Source of the DNA: Sulfurimonas sp. HSL-1716 | Lineage (GTDB): Bacteria > Campylobacterota > Campylobacteria > Campylobacterales > Sulfurimonadaceae | NCBI RefSeq assembly: GCF_039645975.1 | Contig: NZ_CP147918.1 | Coordinates: forward strand, 62,001 to 126,000 | DNA: 64,000 nucleotides | Reading direction: 5' to 3' | In this document: positions 38,333 to 53,380 of the stretch, in pieces | Layout of the letters: every line of letters begins with the position of its first letter | Position numbering within the stretch: position 1 is the first letter of the stretch | Program-made: the position numbers and the translations under genes | Notes under the pieces: model-generated | What the model was told of the DNA's origin: nothing | The model's database searches: none | Seen by the model: the letters and a program-made list of their open reading frames with translations, nothing else

Positions 38333-38346
38333 TTGATTTACATCAA
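38333..38346. promoter_or_regulatory. FNR-type box (TTGATTTACATCAA), porin/regulator intergenic region
   Basis: A perfect TTGAT-N4-ATCAA palindrome, the consensus of FNR/DNR/NssR-type regulators. It has the right spacing to a perfect -10 for the porin. In the other direction the class II start would fall on the ATG of the regulator gene at 38381. Confidence 0.8.
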
Positions 38347-38380: not shown

Positions 38381-39049
38381 ATGACAAATACATTGGATTA
38401 TATTAAATTATTGGATTTCTTTAAAAGTTTGAACGAAGACAACCTTTTAAAGTTGAGTGAAATGTCGGTAATACATCAGTACCCAAAGGGGTATGTATTA
38501 TATTATGAAGATGATATAAGCAATAAAATATTCTTTTTGGTCGAGGGTCTGCTTAGGACTTATAAAGTGGACAGATACGAGAACGAGATATTTTTGAGCT
38601 ATGTCTATAAAAACAAACTGATCTCGGAGATTTCGTCGTTAAGTAACAATGATATCCATTGTTATGCAAATACCGAGTTCGTAGAGGACAGTATAGTATT
38701 AGAGGTAGATTATGAACAGTTTAAAGAACATTTCATATATACAAGCCTCTTGACGGACAAGTTTATTGAAGAGATATTGCGCCAAACGCATGAACTGCAC
38801 TGCATCATAAACAGAGAGTTGATATTCGATGCGACGGCCAGAGTGACATACATGCTGTATGAGGATCTGCAAACCTTTAATAAACTGAAAAGACAAGACG
38901 TATCAGCAATGCTGCATATACAGCCGGAGACCTTATCCAGAATACTTCATAAACTAAAAAGACAAAAGGTTATAGATCTTCAAAAAACGGATGTAGTTAT
39001 CGTAAACAGAACCGAGCTACGAAATATTTTTACCGGAAACGACCAATGA
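38381..39049 (+). CDS. Crp/Fnr family transcriptional regulator
   Basis: A 222-residue regulator: N-terminal cyclic-nucleotide-like beta barrel (about 18-115), dimer helix, and a C-terminal winged helix. The recognition helix contains P-E183-T-L-S186-R187, the E..SR pattern that in FNR reads TTGAT. Only two cysteines exist (C94, C141) and there is no N-terminal cysteine cluster, so it is not an Fe-S FNR; it is more like NssR or DNR, which respond to nitrogen oxides. It is a strong candidate to control the five boxes in this window. No ribosome site precedes the ATG. It overlaps the sensor gene by 4 nt (ATGA). Confidence 0.85.
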   Translation: MTNTLDYIKLLDFFKSLNEDNLLKLSEMSVIHQYPKGYVLYYEDDISNKIFFLVEGLLRTYKVDRYENEIFLSYVYKNKLISEISSLSNNDIHCYANTEFVEDSIVLEVDYEQFKEHFIYTSLLTDKFIEEILRQTHELHCIINRELIFDATARVTYMLYEDLQTFNKLKRQDVSAMLHIQPETLSRILHKLKRQKVIDLQKTDVVIVNRTELRNIFTGNDQ

Positions 39050-40044
39050 AAAAACAAAACATCAAAATCACAACGAAGATAAAGATCTACGGCGCCGTAC
39101 TGGTGACACTGATGCTCAGTCTTATCAGTATCAGTATATATCTTAATCAAAAAAACACAAAAGATGCCCTGCTTATCAATATAGCCGGAAAGCAGAGGAT
39201 GCTTACGCAAAAGATCACAAAAGATATCTTTTACATATATTACAGCAAGAACGCAAACTATACGGATCTGGATGTTTCCACAAACGAATTTATGAAAAAC
39301 TTCAAATATATCAAACAGTATGAAGGACTGCAGGATATTTTAGAACTTTCCGAATCTCCGATATCCGTTCAGCTGGATAAGGTCGATCATCTGTGGAACG
39401 GTTTTTACAACGATATAGTAAGGTTTAAACAAATAGCGGGCGAAGATCAAAACAGTCCTGAGCTAAAAGGGCTTGTAGACAATATATTCGTCAACAATAC
39501 GGTTTTGTTAAAAGAGGTTGACCGGGTCGTGGCTATGCTTACGGAGCTGAGTGAGAACAAGATAAAAAATATAGAAAACCTTCAATACAGTGCAGGTTTT
39601 ATCCTTATCGTTTTAATAATATATATCATATCGAAACTAAGAAGCATGGAGTCCAATGCCCTGACTTTTATAGAGCACACTAAAAGTCTCTCCAGCCTGC
39701 CGAACAATGTCGAGTTAAAACCATTGAACAACGTAGTGGAGAGCGAGATAGTAGAGATGAGCGATATCGTGAACCTGTTTATAAACAAGATAAACAGCGC
39801 GATAGAACATTCTAACGAAGCGGTATCGCAGTCAAAACATGCTTCTGTAAAACTTGAAGAGATAACAGAAGAGCTGAACTATATTTTAGACGAGCTCTCG
39901 GACAATACTCTTTTACTCAAACATTTAAGCGCGAGCGAAGATATGGCTATTCAATCTACGGAAGAACTTTTCAGCTCGACAAATAAATTGAAACGCTTAA
40001 GCGACGAGCTGAACAAACTGCTTATAGAGTGTACCCCAAAATAA
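39046..40044 (+). CDS. PilJ/NarX-type nitrate sensor-like membrane protein without output domain
   Basis: A 332-residue inner membrane protein. TM1 spans about 14-34, a periplasmic helical domain follows, TM2 about 182-198, then a cytosolic coiled coil to the end. The segment LLINIAGKQRMLTQKIT (residues 42-58) matches the conserved first helix of the PilJ/NarX-type sensor domain, where the NarX P-box that binds nitrate lies. There is no kinase, MCP hairpin or GGDEF domain; the cytosolic part is helical only. Being coupled to the regulator gene and placed just before napA, it may signal nitrate or nitrite directly to a partner. Confidence 0.75.
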   Translation: MKKQNIKITTKIKIYGAVLVTLMLSLISISIYLNQKNTKDALLINIAGKQRMLTQKITKDIFYIYYSKNANYTDLDVSTNEFMKNFKYIKQYEGLQDILELSESPISVQLDKVDHLWNGFYNDIVRFKQIAGEDQNSPELKGLVDNIFVNNTVLLKEVDRVVAMLTELSENKIKNIENLQYSAGFILIVLIIYIISKLRSMESNALTFIEHTKSLSSLPNNVELKPLNNVVESEIVEMSDIVNLFINKINSAIEHSNEAVSQSKHASVKLEEITEELNYILDELSDNTLLLKHLSASEDMAIQSTEELFSSTNKLKRLSDELNKLLIECTPK

Positions 40045-40081: not shown

Positions 40082-40095
40082 TTGATCTACATCAA
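40082..40095. promoter_or_regulatory. FNR-type box upstream of napA (TTGATCTACATCAA)
   Basis: A perfect TTGAT-N4-ATCAA palindrome. A -10-like TAGGAT (40118-40123) is centred exactly 32 nt from the box centre, so transcription of the nap operon should start near 40130, about 35 nt before the napA ATG. The ribosome site AGGGGAGGGA precedes the ATG. Confidence 0.82.
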
Positions 40096-40164
40096 GTACA
40101 GTAGTTTAAAATAATGATAGGATTTGAAGGTAAAATTTAAATCTTAATAATAGGGGAGGGAATT

Positions 40165-42978
40165 ATGTCATTCTCAAGAAGAGATTTCCTAAAAAGTTCT
40201 GCTGCAGCATCTGCGGCAGCGGCTGTAGGCATATCAATACCATCGGATCTTAAAGCTGCTGCTGACGAAGCGGAAGCAGGATGGAGATGGGATAAGGCGG
40301 CTTGTCGTTTCTGTGGTACCGGTTGTGGTATTATGATGGCAACCAAAAACGGTAAGATTGTTGCTGTTAAAGGAGACCCTGCAGCGCCTGTTAATCGCGG
40401 GCTTAACTGTATCAAAGGTTACTTTAATGCAAAAATCATGTATGGAGCGGATCGTCTGACGCAACCGCTTTTAAGAGTAAACAGCAAAGGCGAGTTCGAT
40501 AAACATGGAGAGTTTGCTCCTGTTTCTTGGAAAAGAGCTTTTGACGAAATGGAAAAAAATATCCGTAAAGCTCTAAAAGAGAGCGGTCCTGAAGGTGTCG
40601 GTGTATTTGCATCGGGACAATATACAATCATGGAAGGGTATGCAGCTCAAAAAATGATGAAAGCAGGTTTCCGTTCTAATGCGATCGATCCGAATGCTCG
40701 TCACTGTATGGCATCTGCGGTTGTCGGTTTCTATCAAACATTCGGAATCGATGAGCCTTCAGGTTGTTATGACGATATCGAACTTACAGATACTGTTATC
40801 TCTTGGGGTTCAAACATGGCGGAAATGCACCCGATCCTTTGGTCTCGTGTAACTGACAGAAAACTGACTGCACCGGATCGTGTAAAAGTTGTTTCTATCC
40901 AGACTTATACACACAGAACATCGGATTTGGCAGATATCGAGATCATCTTTACTCCAAATACCGACCTTGCACTTTGGAACTATGTAGCAAGAGAGATCGT
41001 ATACAATCATCCAGACGTGATCGATTGGGATTTCATTAAGAAACATATTGTTTTCGCAGCCGGTCCTGTTAACATCGGATACGGTATGAGAAGAGCAGGC
41101 GAAAAGTCTTACAAAGAAGGCAAATACAATGCAAAAGAGATGGAAACTTACTCTAAAGAGATGAGTAAAGCAGTTTCTGATACTGAAGCTCCTGCATTGG
41201 CACCGTACGGATATAAAGCCGGTGATACTATGAAAAATACTGCGGGTACTCTTGCTCACTGGGAGATCTCTTTTGAGGAGTACAAAAAATCATTAGAGCC
41301 GTATACACTTGACTATGTAGCATCGATTTCAAAAGGTGACCCTGATGAAGATATTGAAGAGTTCAAGAAAAAACTTCAAGCTCTTGCAGATCTATACATA
41401 GAAAAAGACAGAAAAGTAGTATCTTTCTGGACAATGGGTATGAACCAACATACTCGCGGAAGCTGGGACAATACTCTAGCTTATAACGTTCACTTTATGC
41501 TAAACAAACAAGCTAGACCTGGTTCTGGTGCGTTCTCATTGACTGGACAGCCTTCAGCTTGTGGTACTGCACGTGAAGTCGGTACGTTTACACACAGACT
41601 TCCTGCAGACTTGATGGTTAAAGTTCCTGCTCACAGAAAAATCGCTGAGAAAAAATGGATGATACCTGACGGTACTCTAAACGGTGTCGGTGTACAGCAC
41701 ATCATGAAAATCCATAGAGATATCGAAGACGGACTGATTAAATTCGCGTGGGTTAACGTTTGTAACGCTTATCAAGATTCTGCGAATGCAAGCCACTGGA
41801 TCAAAGCAGCTCGTGAAATGGATAACTTTATCGTAACTTCTGACGGATATCCTGGTATATCTGCAAAAGTTTCAGATCTTATCTTGCCATCGGCGATGAT
41901 CTATGAAAAATGGGGTGCATACGGAAATGCAGAACGCCGTACACAACACTGGAGACAACAAGTTCTTCCGGTAGGTGACGCGATGAGTGATACTTGGCAA
42001 TGGGTTGAGCTTTCAAAACGCTTTACTGTAGATGATCTATGGGGAGGATATGCTCCTTCAGGTCCAAGAAAAACTCCATTGGCAGACGTAAGAGACAAAG
42101 CTAGAGAGATGGGATACAGTGGTGACACTACTATGTATGAAATCCTTTTTGCAAATAAAATCGCAAAAGCATACAAACTTGATCAAAACGATCCTATTCA
42201 ACAAGGTTATGACAACTCTGAAGGATACGGAGACAGCAGAAATGTCGTCGGTTCTGACGGAAAAGTATTTAAAGGATACGGATTCTTTATCCAAAAATAC
42301 CTTTGGGAAGAGTATGCTGCATTCGGGCGCGGTCATGGACATGACTTGGCACCGTTTGATGTTTACCACAAAGTTCGTGGTCTTAAATGGCCGGTTGTTG
42401 ACGGAAAAGAAACTCCATGGAGATTCAACGCGAAATACGATCCGTATGCTGCAAAAGAAACAAAAGGTACAAACGATGAGTTTGCATTCTATGGAAAAAT
42501 TGCAAAAGCATTACCGTATGGTGATCTAAACGGCGTTAAAAACAAAACTAAAACAGCTCTGAAAAACAAAGCGAAGATATTTGCACGTCCATATATGGAT
42601 CCACCGGAAAAACCGGATGCAGAGTACAACACTTGGTTATGTACAGGTCGTGTACTAGAGCACTGGCACTCAGGAACAATGACTATGCGTGTACCTGAAC
42701 TATATCGTGCAGTACCGGAAGCTCTATGTTATATGCACCCTAAAGATGCAGAAGACAAAGGTATCAAACAAGGCGAACTTGCATGGATAGAATCTCGCCG
42801 TGGTAAGGTCAAAGCTCGTGTTGAAACACGTGGTAGAAATAGACCTAGACGCGGTCTTGTATTTGTTCCATGGTTCGATGAGCGTGTATTTATAAACAAG
42901 GTCACATTGGATGCAACTTGTCCTATGTCTAAACAAACAGACTATAAAAAATGTGCCGTAAAAATTTATAAAGCGTAA
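40165..42978 (+). CDS. napA: Periplasmic nitrate reductase catalytic subunit
   Basis: A 937-residue molybdenum bis-MGD enzyme that reduces nitrate to nitrite in the periplasm. The twin-arginine signal is SRRDFLK (residues 4-10) with an Ala-rich hydrophobic stretch. The [4Fe-4S] ligands are C47, C50, C54 and C82 ([21 protein letters not shown]), and the Mo-ligand is C180 in [10 protein letters not shown]. Length (about 100 residues above the Escherichia coli enzyme) is normal for epsilonproteobacterial NapA. First gene of the nap operon. Confidence 0.97.
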
Positions 42979-43003: not shown

Positions 43004-43795
43004 ATGGAAAAAAAGAATATCAGCGATAGAAGAAAGTTTATCTTCAATATGGCTCAAGGTGTCGGAATCACGGTACTTGGAGGATTTGTATGGAGCGCAT
43101 TTATTGATGAGGCGAAAGCCTCTCAATTGCTCTTACGTCCGCCGGGAGCTTTAAAAGAGAAAGATTTTCTTCGTACATGTATAAAGTGCGGGCTTTGTGT
43201 TGAAGCTTGTCCTTACGATACGTTGATGCTGGCTCGTCCGGGAGATCACAGACCTCTTGGAACGCCGTACTTTATTCCTAGGGATATCCCTTGCTATATG
43301 TGTCCTGATATTCCTTGTGTACCTGTCTGTCCGACGGGAGCATTGAATGAAAAGAGCGTAACGACCGACGGACATCTAAACATCAAAGTCGCCGATATGG
43401 GACTTGCTGTAGTGGATGCGGAGAGTTGTATCGCTTTTTGGGGTATCCAGTGTGATGCATGTTACAGAGCATGTCCGATTTTCGGTGAAGCGATTACGAT
43501 CGAATACCAGAAAAACGAAAGAACGGGCAAGCACGCATATATGACACCGATCGTACACAGCAACGCTTGTACGGGCTGCGGTCTTTGTGAGCATGCCTGT
43601 GTAACAGAAAAACCCGCCATCCATATACTTCCTCGTGAAGTAGCGATGGGTAAAGCCGGAGATTATTATATAAAAGGCTGGGATAAAAAAGACGAGAAAC
43701 GGTTGAAAAACGCTAAAGCGATCAAAAGCACGACGGAAATAAACAAAAAAAGTGCGATAGATTCTTTAAATAGCGGGCTGAAGGATTTATACTAA
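43004..43795 (+). CDS. napG: Ferredoxin-type protein NapG
   Basis: A 263-residue periplasmic iron-sulfur protein that with NapH passes electrons from menaquinol toward NapB/NapA. A Tat-like motif (DRRKFI, residues 8-13) is followed by a hydrophobic stretch. Four [4Fe-4S] motifs are visible, such as CIKCGLCVEACP, CYMCPDIPCVPVCP, CDACYRACP and CTGCGLCEHAC. In Campylobacterota NapGH replaces NapC as the quinol route. Its stop overlaps the napH ATG by one base. Confidence 0.95.
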   Translation: MEKKNISDRRKFIFNMAQGVGITVLGGFVWSAFIDEAKASQLLLRPPGALKEKDFLRTCIKCGLCVEACPYDTLMLARPGDHRPLGTPYFIPRDIPCYMCPDIPCVPVCPTGALNEKSVTTDGHLNIKVADMGLAVVDAESCIAFWGIQCDACYRACPIFGEAITIEYQKNERTGKHAYMTPIVHSNACTGCGLCEHACVTEKPAIHILPREVAMGKAGDYYIKGWDKKDEKRLKNAKAIKSTTEINKKSAIDSLNSGLKDLY

Positions 43796-44610
43796 TGGTA
43801 AAGCTATGGGAAAACTATAGATATCTTATTTTAAGAAGATTGACGCAGGTAGGACTTTTGGTTTTATATTTTGGTGGAAATGTTTGGGGCTGGACCGTTT
43901 TAAGAGGTAATCTCAGCTCGTCGAAAATATTTAATACGATCCCGGTGAGTGATCCTTATGCAGCATTACAAATGCTTGCTGCGGGTGCAACTTTGGCAAC
44001 GGACCTGCTGATAGGCGTAGCTGTGACGACAATATTTTATCTATTGATCGGCGGCAGAGCGTTTTGCAGCTGGGTCTGCCCTATAAATATGGTAACCGAT
44101 GCGGCCAACTATACAAGAAGAGTTCTTGATATTAAGCGCGTACAAGGCAATAAACAGCCGGCTTCGAGAAACATCAGGTACTGGGCATTGGGTCTAAGCC
44201 TTGTGATCTCTGCGGTTATGGGACTGACGGCCTTTGAGTTTATATCTCCTATATCTATGGTTCATAGAGGGATCGTGTTCGGTCTGGGATTCGGCTGGGC
44301 GGCAATAGTCGTCATATTTTTGTTCGACCTTTTGATTTTAAAAAACGGATGGTGCGGTCATGTATGTCCGCTAGGCGGATTTTATTCGCTGCTTGGTAAA
44401 TTTAGTTTAATAAGAGTGCATCATAATGAGGCTAATTGTACATTATGTATGAAATGTAAAGTCGTTTGTCCTGAGCAACAGGTTCTCGGTATGGTAGGCA
44501 AAGAAAGCTTGCCTGTCCTATCGGGAGAGTGTACGAACTGTGCGAGATGTATAGAGGTATGCGATGATGATGCTTTAGGATTTTCTATTAAGTCACTAGT
44601 AAAAAAATAA
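43795..44610 (+). CDS. napH: Quinol dehydrogenase membrane component NapH
   Basis: A 271-residue inner membrane protein with four helices (about 13-30, 60-83, 125-150, 155-180). It has the polyferredoxin-type motifs CSWVCPINM and CGHVCPLGG that flank the helices, and two C-terminal [4Fe-4S] sites, CTLCMKCKVVCP and CTNCARCIEVCD. It is predicted to oxidise menaquinol and pass electrons to NapG. Confidence 0.95.
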   Translation: MVKLWENYRYLILRRLTQVGLLVLYFGGNVWGWTVLRGNLSSSKIFNTIPVSDPYAALQMLAAGATLATDLLIGVAVTTIFYLLIGGRAFCSWVCPINMVTDAANYTRRVLDIKRVQGNKQPASRNIRYWALGLSLVISAVMGLTAFEFISPISMVHRGIVFGLGFGWAAIVVIFLFDLLILKNGWCGHVCPLGGFYSLLGKFSLIRVHHNEANCTLCMKCKVVCPEQQVLGMVGKESLPVLSGECTNCARCIEVCDDDALGFSIKSLVKK

Positions 44611-44625
44611 TAGTAGGAGAGTGAG

Positions 44626-45330
44626 ATGAAAACAATAAGTAAGATAACTATCGGTTTGGCTACTACGGCACTTCTAATGATTGGGTGTGGTAGCGGTTCA
44701 AATGCAACGCCGGCAAACGAGGCAACTGCAAAGCCGAAAATTTCAGAAGAAGCGTTGAGCTATAGAAATACAAGTTTATACACCGAGAAAGGTACTACGG
44801 TACCTGTGGCACTGTACTGTACAGATGCACCGGGAACAAGTAAAAAAATCAAAAGAGCGTTCCAGGATGCTCCGCCTATGATCCCGCATGACACTGACGG
44901 TATGCTTCCGATCAAAAAAGGCAACAACCAATGTTTAAGCTGTCATATGCCGGATGTTGCGTCTAGCATGGGTGCAACACCGATCCCGCAGTCACACTTT
45001 TTGGATATGAGACCGGTTAACAAAATCGTTGACGGCAAACTTGTAAAAGGGGTTGATAATCTTCAAAATCAGGTAAGCATCAAAAAAATAAGCGATGTAT
45101 ACCCGGGAAGATTTAACTGTTCACAATGTCATGCTCCGCAGGCAAATGCAAAACTTGTTACTGAAAATAAATTCCAACCACAGTACATAAGTAAAGACGG
45201 TGCGTACAGATCACACTGGAATGAAGTTGTTACCGATGATCTAGATACACTCGGTAAAGATTCAAGCGTAACTGCAAAAGATGTTGCTAATGAAAATTCT
45301 CCAGCCGGTAAGCCGTTGTTTGGACATTAA
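44626..45330 (+). CDS. napB: Periplasmic nitrate reductase dihaem subunit NapB, probable lipoprotein
   Basis: A 234-residue dihaem c-type cytochrome passing electrons to NapA. Haem-binding motifs are C103-x2-C106-H107 (CLSCH) and C165-x2-C168-H169 (CSQCH), with distal histidine candidates in PQSHF and YRSHWNEV. The leader ends MIGC-GSGS, with a lipobox-like C21 in place of a normal signal-peptidase I site, so it may be lipid-anchored. It is longer than typical NapB because of its Ser/Ala-rich linker and a C-terminal tail. Confidence 0.93.
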   Translation: MKTISKITIGLATTALLMIGCGSGSNATPANEATAKPKISEEALSYRNTSLYTEKGTTVPVALYCTDAPGTSKKIKRAFQDAPPMIPHDTDGMLPIKKGNNQCLSCHMPDVASSMGATPIPQSHFLDMRPVNKIVDGKLVKGVDNLQNQVSIKKISDVYPGRFNCSQCHAPQANAKLVTENKFQPQYISKDGAYRSHWNEVVTDDLDTLGKDSSVTAKDVANENSPAGKPLFGH

Positions 45331-45335
45331 TCATT

Positions 45336-45818
45336 ATGAATAGAAGAGAGCTTTTCAGCTCTCTTACTTCTTCGATCAAAAAGAAGAAAGAGAGTTACAT
45401 CAGACCGCCTTATTATGAAGACGAGTCTCTTTTTTACAGCGAGTGCGAAAAATGCGACGGCAAATGCGCTACTGTCTGTAAAGAGGAGATTATAAAGATC
45501 GCGGGCGATAAGACACCGTATATCGATTTCTCAAAAAACGGCTGTACATATTGTGATGAGTGTGCCCACAGCTGCGAATACGGGGTTCTTGTTTTAGAAA
45601 ATAAAAAGAATATTAACGCCAAGGTTGTAATAAACAAAAAAAAATGTTACAGTTGGAGCGGTATTATGTGCTTTACGTGTAAAGATCCATGTCTTGACAA
45701 CGCCATTGATTTTCAGGCGATGTTCATGCCAGTTATCGATGATTCCAAATGCACGGCTTGCGGCTTTTGCATCAATGTCTGTCCTGCGGCATCGATAGAC
45801 ATAAAGGTGATTGAATGA
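45336..45818 (+). CDS. napF: Ferredoxin-type protein NapF
   Basis: A 160-residue cytosolic iron-sulfur protein. It begins MNRRELFSS like Escherichia coli NapF and has four cysteine clusters: CEKCDGKCATVC, CTYCDECAHSC, CFTCKDPC and CTACGFCINVCPA. NapF is thought to help mature NapA or mediate electron flow to it. Its stop overlaps napL by 4 nt. Confidence 0.92.
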   Translation: MNRRELFSSLTSSIKKKKESYIRPPYYEDESLFYSECEKCDGKCATVCKEEIIKIAGDKTPYIDFSKNGCTYCDECAHSCEYGVLVLENKKNINAKVVINKKKCYSWSGIMCFTCKDPCLDNAIDFQAMFMPVIDDSKCTACGFCINVCPAASIDIKVIE

Positions 45819-46765
45819 AAAAATTTCTATTTATAGTACTGTTTACGGGTACGCTGTTCGCCAGATCGATACTAAATCCATGTCTTACATATACGGCAAC
45901 GGGCGGGGTGACGGATATGGTTATCCATGACGGCAAACTGTATGTCGGTACGACGCAGAGCAGTCTGGATATTTTTGATATGCGCAACGATAAACTTTTA
46001 AAGACCATAAAAGTGGATAAAGTAAAAGACTTTATGGGCGATCTCGTCGATGCCAAAATATACTCCGTCGATGTCGATAAAGACCGTTTGCTGATCCTCT
46101 CAGAAGCCGAACATGGATATAGAAGGGTCTATATAAATGAAGACGGTAAGAACAAGATCGTCATTCCCTCATCCATGTCTCTTTCCATAGAGAAGGCGAA
46201 ATTCTTAGACAAAGATACGATATTGCTGGGGCTTTTGGGCGATGAACTGATATCGTACGACATCAAAAAAGGAAAACAGAACTGGCGTGTACCCGCAGGA
46301 GGATCGAAATTCTCTGATTTTGCATTGAACGAAAGAAAAGACAGAGTGGTCGTAGCCGATGAGAGCGGAGATTTAAAGATTATTGACACGAAAAACGGTG
46401 CTTTGATAAAAACACTGACGGGAGAGAATCTGGATAACGTCTTTCAGGTTGATTATAAAAAAGGGATCATCGTCAGTGCGGGGCAGGACAGAAGAACCGT
46501 GATCTATAATCGAAACACAAACTCCGCATACTATAAAAGTTCGGATTTTATGATATACAGCGTAGGTCTCTCTCCAAGCGGTAAACTGGCAGGATATTCA
46601 AGTGACGAGAACGGCAATGTGACGATTTTCAACACTGCAACAAAAACAGAGATCGGAACGTTCGGTGGAAATAAAATGACTCCCGCTCATATAATTTTCA
46701 TCAATGAAAACGAGTTTTTAGTGTCTAGCAACAACAAGATAATCAATATCTATGAAATTAAATAA
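45815..46765 (+). CDS. napL: NapL, periplasmic WD40-like protein of the epsilonproteobacterial nap operon
   Basis: A 316-residue exported protein: signal peptide MKKFLFIVLFTGTLFA, then repeated beta-propeller blades such as GKLYVGTTQSSLDIFDMRND and ADESGDLKIIDTKNGALIKT. NapL is found between napF and napD in Campylobacterota; its role is unclear but it supports normal Nap activity in Campylobacter/Wolinella. The order here, napF-napL-(PAS)-napD, differs only by the inserted PAS gene. Confidence 0.88.
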   Translation: MKKFLFIVLFTGTLFARSILNPCLTYTATGGVTDMVIHDGKLYVGTTQSSLDIFDMRNDKLLKTIKVDKVKDFMGDLVDAKIYSVDVDKDRLLILSEAEHGYRRVYINEDGKNKIVIPSSMSLSIEKAKFLDKDTILLGLLGDELISYDIKKGKQNWRVPAGGSKFSDFALNERKDRVVVADESGDLKIIDTKNGALIKTLTGENLDNVFQVDYKKGIIVSAGQDRRTVIYNRNTNSAYYKSSDFMIYSVGLSPSGKLAGYSSDENGNVTIFNTATKTEIGTFGGNKMTPAHIIFINENEFLVSSNNKIINIYEIK

Positions 46766-53366: not shown

Positions 53367-53380
53367 TTGATGCAAATCAA
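53367..53380. promoter_or_regulatory. FNR-type box upstream of nirDL (TTGATGCAAATCAA)
   Basis: A perfect TTGAT-N4-ATCAA palindrome. TACAAT (53403-53408) is centred exactly 32 nt downstream of the box centre, giving a predicted transcript start near 53415 for the nirDL operon. Confidence 0.82.

Follow-up and report, generated by a model that had tools for sequence, protein, structure and literature searches.

A membrane sensor with a nitrate-sensor-like periplasmic domain is encoded directly behind an Nss-type Crp/Fnr-family regulator in the window (the whole 64,000-nt stretch of DNA analyzed here), which comes from a complete 2.26-Mb genome. We consider it probable (about two chances in three) that the two proteins form a non-enzymatic transmembrane signaling pair that acts by direct contact.

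The pair, the nap genes, and all features described within or next to them lie on the plus strand. The regulator gene (38381..39049) is an ORF of 222 aa with cNMP_binding and HTH_Crp_2 domains. The gene of the output-less sensor (39046..40044) encodes 332 aa with a Pfam PilJ domain, a HAMP-like region, and a cytosolic hairpin, and its structural model is NarQ/McpN-like. As the original prediction had stated, this gene overlaps that of a Crp-type regulator by 4 nt, the sensor ATG sharing four bases (ATGA) with the regulator stop, and napA follows. The latter ORF (40165..42978), which has a predicted box upstream, is the presumed target. The genes napG, napH, napB, napF, and napL, assigned from ORFs and domains, occupy 43004..46765, and their order after napA is kept in relatives.

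Linkage and distribution of the gene pair

Homologs of the sensor were found at an E-value of 1e-5 in 127 of the 228 genomes of the host's family. In this first search, at least 132 of the 148 listed sensor places have the regulator directly upstream, at a spacing of -5 to 30 nt; the other places are contig ends or have the regulator outside the matches listed, and those of the latter that were fetched do have it. A scan of a genome collection, which overlaps in part with the 228-genome set (some genomes are identical), gave 80 named sensor loci. These are mostly from Sulfurimonas and Arcobacteraceae, the latter including Aliarcobacter vitoriensis, Arcobacter caeni, Malaciobacter halophilus, and Poseidonibacter ostreae. 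The regulator precedes the sensor in every one of the 80 loci having upstream sequence, likewise in 40 further genome loci (including ~450-aa sensors with two PilJ domains), and also in six more divergent loci (L238-L243). An automatic pair test was passed by 146 of 152 sensor ORFs; in two of the failures the contig begins within the sensor, in two the contig end truncates the regulator, and in two the regulator ORF is shortened.

Overall, an Nss-type gene lies immediately upstream in ~155 sensor loci from several Campylobacterales families wherever upstream sequence is present, and no sensor of the PilJ-HAMP-hairpin kind without a regulator was found among loci having such sequence. A spacing of precisely -4 is shared by 53 of the 126 non-redundant pairs. 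Across the order, a profile match at 1e-5 was obtained in 227 of 399 genomes and 59 of 87 genera, an upper bound in which other PilJ proteins are counted. Sensorless regulators also exist: 17 were present in the fetched loci, some of them before nap. They presumably do their own sensing, and the sensor may then be no more than a modulator.

The gene next after the pair is napA in most Sulfurimonas-type loci. In Arcobacteraceae, the pair may precede nosZ, napA, a uroporphyrinogen-III methyltransferase gene, or a c-type-cytochrome beta-propeller cluster that, as a guess, could be nor/nir-like. In another family, it comes after a cytochrome c biogenesis (CcsB-type) gene, a placement as in nrf operons. 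The pair shifts as one unit among nap, nosZ, the cytochrome cluster, and siroheme-type genes. Both the co-occurrence in other Campylobacterota and the nap linkage that the original prediction had put up for checking were borne out: the homologs are consistently regulator-linked, and nap or another N-oxide gene is present in most loci with identified neighbors. A description of the sensor was not found in our literature search, the coverage of which did not extend to the primary study of NssA/B/C.

Domains and structural model of the sensor

The Pfam PilJ domain matches residues 32-124 of the sensor (E = 4.7e-12; 46.4 bits vs. a curated cut-off of 26.6), and the sequence has hydrophobic stretches at residues ~14-33 and ~181-198. 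In the Pfam domain search, the sensor had no kinase, GGDEF, or MCPsignal match; the DHp and ATPase domains of NarX/NarQ kinases were not found either, and the protein ends after the hairpin. The NarQ equivalog model aligned to residues 7-201 with 9.7 bits, below its cut-off of 553. Among the 65 aligned members of the sensor family, PilJ was detected in 59 and MCPsignal in two (best E = 0.003). A hidden C-terminal kinase, GGDEF, or MCP domain was ruled out by these domain searches, including the 65-member alignment. The PilJ/NarX-type periplasmic domain, the two membrane helices, and the missing kinase, MCP, and GGDEF domains of the original prediction were thus confirmed, and what it called a cytosolic coiled coil is better described as a HAMP-like region (~residues 199-255) followed by an antiparallel hairpin.

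The AlphaFold2 model of the sensor, built with 65 sequences (pLDDT 79.7 overall), comprises a periplasmic four-helix bundle, two membrane helices, a HAMP-like helix-loop-helix (39640..39810), and one antiparallel hairpin (~residues 256-329; 39811..40032), with the modeled hairpin helices at 233-284 and 290-329. The hairpin, which is also covered by the cytosolic-part profile A4, is tentative because the pLDDT is 45-77 across the cytosolic part, a low-to-medium confidence. The best solved matches of the whole model are sensor-TM-HAMP fragments of NarQ (TM-score of at most 0.79 by target length) and the ligand domain of McpN, and the HAMP-containing NarQ fragments align with it across ~250 columns. 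A search for solved structures resembling the hairpin alone gave only coiled-coil noise.

Two regions stand out by conservation among homologs. The P-box (residues 44-60; 39175..39225), with the sequence INIAGKQRMLTQ, contains G48-K-Q-R51, which corresponds to the G-x-x-R nitrate motif of NarX, NarQ, and McpN (PMC8199190; McpN R61, PMC6381276). G48/R51 are present in 111 of the 126 non-redundant sensor homologs, and the remaining 15 have N/K. The hairpin carries the motif S/K-E298-D/N-x2-I302-x3-E306-x-L308 (39934..39969), in which E298 and I302 are conserved in 99% and E306 in 96% of the 126 sequences; L315 and L322, beyond this motif, are conserved in 97-98%. With these conserved residues, the cytosolic part goes beyond a generic coiled coil.

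Sensors with tandem PilJ domains (L064 6832-8202, L065 7573-8931, and L157-L171) have the hairpin and the regulator linkage unchanged, and G-x-x-R is present in both PilJ domains of the L064 and L065 sensors. The genome's third PilJ protein (404 aa; L036 4986-6200) is a membrane diguanylate cyclase of the PilJ type, with a GGDEF match at E = 5.6e-49.

By profile similarity, the cytosolic part shows a distant relationship to the HAMP-proximal segment of chemoreceptors from Campylobacterota. Profile A4 matches these proteins at ~1e-9 to 1e-16, a score to which shared coiled-coil composition could contribute. The match spans the HAMP and the following helices and stops before the conserved chemoreceptor tip that contacts CheA. 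The transmitter of the sensor therefore seems to be a chemoreceptor stalk lacking the CheA-binding end.

The regulator and its predicted operators

The window regulator matches cNMP_binding (E = 3.1e-10) and HTH_Crp_2 (E = 3.6e-10) in Pfam and has a CRP/FNR fold (AlphaFold2 and Foldseek). DNR is among the relatives. Compared with FNR and CRP, the window regulator probably lacks both the FNR-type N-terminal cysteines and the CRP arginine for the cAMP phosphate. Its fold, position, and box agree with the Nss group: TTGA-N6-TCAA, the consensus for Nss-type regulators (PMC11539149), is found in the predicted boxes at nap/nos genes, as is characteristic of this subfamily. In Wolinella, NssA, NssB, and NssC mediate the responses to nitrate, NO, and N2O, and their sensing mechanism has been stated as open (PMC8139620; PMC6682613). 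In Nitrosophilus, an NssA-like gene (44.8%) lies before nap (PMC11539149).

The recognition helix (residues 182-194; 38924..38962) contains PETLSR with E183 and has R194 at its end. E183 is present in 110 of 111 nap-type regulators and is replaced by alanine or serine in all 15 of the nos type described below. D162 (38864..38866) and R194 (38960-38962) are near-invariant in the 126 sensor-paired regulators (91 and 98%, respectively), and both are absent from all 17 unpaired ones. This difference is suggestive only, because most of the 17 belong to a distant clade, and the two residues, both in the DNA-binding domain, may simply contact each other. Residue 94 (38660-38662) is cysteine in 103 of 111 nap-type regulators and serine or alanine in all nos-type ones; C94 is a possible redox or NO site.

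Two predicted Nss/FNR-type boxes flank the pair, namely, TTGATTTACATCAA upstream of the regulator (38333..38346), a perfect TTGAT-N4-ATCAA, and TTGATCTACATCAA between the sensor and napA (40082..40095), located by searching for the same pattern. This pattern occurs three times in the window vs. 0.28 expected and at eight places in the genome vs. one for the reversed control. The third perfect site of the window is at 53367-53380, and the five others elsewhere in the genome could define the regulon. Among the homologous loci, the 300 nt that follow the sensor contain TTGA-N6-TCAA in 43 of 110 cases of the nap type (1.4 expected) and in 13 of 15 of the nos type (0.15 expected), and where napA directly follows the sensor, 34 of 47 loci have it in between. 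Upstream of the regulator, it is found in only 15 of 111 loci; therefore, autoregulation by the regulator is not general. Relative to TAGGAT at 40118, the predicted box at 40082 would sit at the position of a class II activator site. A class II role of the upstream box (38333-38346) would put the transcription start near 38382, on the annotated ATG (38381), in which case the regulator mRNA may be leaderless or translation may start at a later codon.

Co-divergence of the two proteins and sensorless sister species

Pairwise distances were compared across 58 loci with NapA. The regulator distances correlate with those of the sensor cytosolic part (0.95), the periplasmic part (0.90), and NapA (0.83). 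After the periplasmic part and NapA are controlled for, the regulator and the cytosolic part retain a partial correlation of 0.655 (bootstrap 0.52-0.76). Controlling for the cytosolic part and NapA leaves 0.40 between the regulator and the periplasmic part. NapA and the cytosolic part show no partial correlation (-0.06). By regulator domain, the value with the cytosolic part is 0.66 for the N-terminal domain and 0.42 for the DNA-binding domain. The distance pairs are not independent, so this co-divergence is a lean rather than proof. Mutual information between sensor and regulator columns gave no enrichment in the cytosolic part and is dominated by the split between nap and nos paralogs.

Two congeners (G017 and G018) have the order porin, regulator (68-69% identical), napA, with the sensor missing, and a full sensor was not found anywhere in their genomes. 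G017 keeps TTGA-N6-TCAA before napA and another before the regulator (L070). The regulators of both species deviate at Y73, K154, D162, and R194, columns that are at least 90% conserved in paired regulators. The window regulator has the same deviation at K154 and deviates at 73 too, and the changes specific to G017 and G018 are D162N and R194Q. Since the regulator and nap survive without the sensor in these species, a restraining sensor is easier to reconcile with the pattern than a needed one. We lean slightly toward a sensor that sequesters the regulator without nitrate and releases it with nitrate, because the sister species lost the sensor and yet kept the regulator, the box, and nap. The one-step signaling pair that was originally proposed is thus supported in part: the co-divergence with the cytosolic part and the regulator changes in sensorless species favor a direct pair.

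A paralogous pair linked to nosZ

The genome itself and many relatives carry a paralogous pair (here at C1 ~1777725-1779363, minus strand; L035 8726-10364). The gene that follows this pair was recognized in the relative L058 as nosZ of the Sec-dependent type (clade II); homologs of nosB, nosD, and nosG come after nosZ. In the 15 nos-type pairs, R51 of the sensor is changed to lysine and G48 to asparagine, and E183 of the regulator to alanine or serine. For most of the 15, nosZ is directly downstream; L175 is not followed by nosZ, and L052 ends at the contig. NarX with K or S in place of R54 is no longer sensitive to its ligand, and the R50K variant of NarQ has the putative apo form (PMC7247690). 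By analogy with these mutants, the nos-type sensors are very unlikely to sense nitrate through the arginine pocket; that their ligand is N2O or another signal is speculation. The nosZ-linked pair of L090 is of the nap type with R51 intact, and therefore nosZ linkage by itself does not imply the R51 change.

A small conserved, probably exported protein (~145-157 aa) is encoded directly upstream of the nosZ-linked pair (L058 6560-6997 and L035 10372-10845), and nothing matched it in an NCBIfam search. In another genome (G092), the nosZ-linked sensor (L057 7235-7882) lies in two frames (215 + ~179 aa) and is apparently broken; the regulator is intact.

Proposed mechanism and alternative explanations

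By homology, the periplasmic G48-x-x-R51 pocket of the sensor dimer would bind nitrate, possibly nitrite, and a NarQ-like helix movement would be relayed through the membrane helices and the HAMP. The signal would then alter the short helical hairpin, which would contact the Nss-type regulator, most likely at its effector domain as the covariation suggests. Once released or activated, the regulator would bind TTGA-N6-TCAA before napA and, in some cases, before the regulator gene itself. The pair before nosZ would work alike with a different ligand and perhaps a different operator, because the nitrate arginine is gone from its sensor and the glutamate from the recognition helix of its regulator. 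A broader reading, which we offer tentatively and think less than likely, is that the chemoreceptor-derived HAMP-hairpin is a non-enzymatic transmitter that binds Crp/Fnr-type regulators and represents a signaling class of its own, with the nosZ-linked paralog detecting another N-oxide, possibly N2O.

The regulator could instead sense nitrogen oxides itself, through NO or a thiol/heme signal as in DNR or as proposed for NssB/NssC, with the sensor tuning it or being redundant. We judge this rather unlikely: although sensorless regulators exist before nap, C94 is conserved in the nap type and S/A in the nos type, and DNR is a relative, a sensor with a conserved P-box and hairpin is kept at the large majority of the examined loci linked to nap or nos, and regulator residues have changed in the sister species without a sensor. 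It is also conceivable that the sensor, as a truncated receptor, joins dimers or clusters of receptors and feeds its signal to the chemotaxis array or another chemoreceptor, its co-transcription with the regulator being incidental. The relation of its cytosolic part to the HAMP-proximal segment of Campylobacterota MCPs would suit such a role, as would the PilJ domains of chemoreceptors such as McpN (PMC6381276). However, the CheA/CheW tip of those MCPs is missing, MCPsignal is unmatched in the sensor, and the linkage is always to the regulator, which co-varies with the cytosolic part, and this makes the explanation improbable. Mixed dimers, in which an unlinked histidine kinase or another membrane protein joins the sensor and relays the signal, would account for the missing enzyme domain, but no such partner was seen adjoining the pair in the loci read and the regulator has no receiver domain for phosphorylation; we give this very little weight.

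If the two proteins do signal by direct contact, a membrane partner with a nitrate-type domain behind the regulator would offer a testable answer to how Nss systems sense nitrate, and the small number of known contact-signaling pairs of membrane sensor and regulator would gain one based on Crp/Fnr. The nosZ-linked copy is a candidate regulator of N2O reduction in widespread denitrifiers.

Comparison with known systems

Like NarX/NarQ, which work with NarL/NarP, the sensor has a PilJ-type four-helix periplasmic domain, G-x-x-R, TM helices, and HAMP. Unlike them, it has no S-helix, GAF, DHp, or kinase, and its partner is a Crp/Fnr-type regulator without a receiver domain. It shares the PilJ domain with McpN of P. 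aeruginosa, in which R61, located at the dimer axis, mediates nitrate binding by this domain (PMC6381276). McpN differs in having an MCP signaling domain and using the Che pathway; the tip is missing in the window sensor. The regulator resembles NssA/B/C of Wolinella and NssR of Campylobacter in belonging to the Crp/Fnr superfamily, in its position before nap, and in the consensus TTGA-N6-TCAA. It differs from the described Nss regulators in the membrane partner encoded directly behind it, of which no mention was found in the literature searched. The LytTR Regulatory Systems (HdrRM and BrsRM) are likewise two genes, for a DNA-binding regulator and a membrane protein, outside the phosphosignaling paradigms; they consist of a regulator and its transmembrane inhibitor and are autoregulated (PMC6193735). 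The proteins are unrelated to the present pair, in which the regulator is of the HTH_Crp_2 rather than the LytTR type, a ligand is known for the sensor-domain family, and autoregulation is not a general feature.
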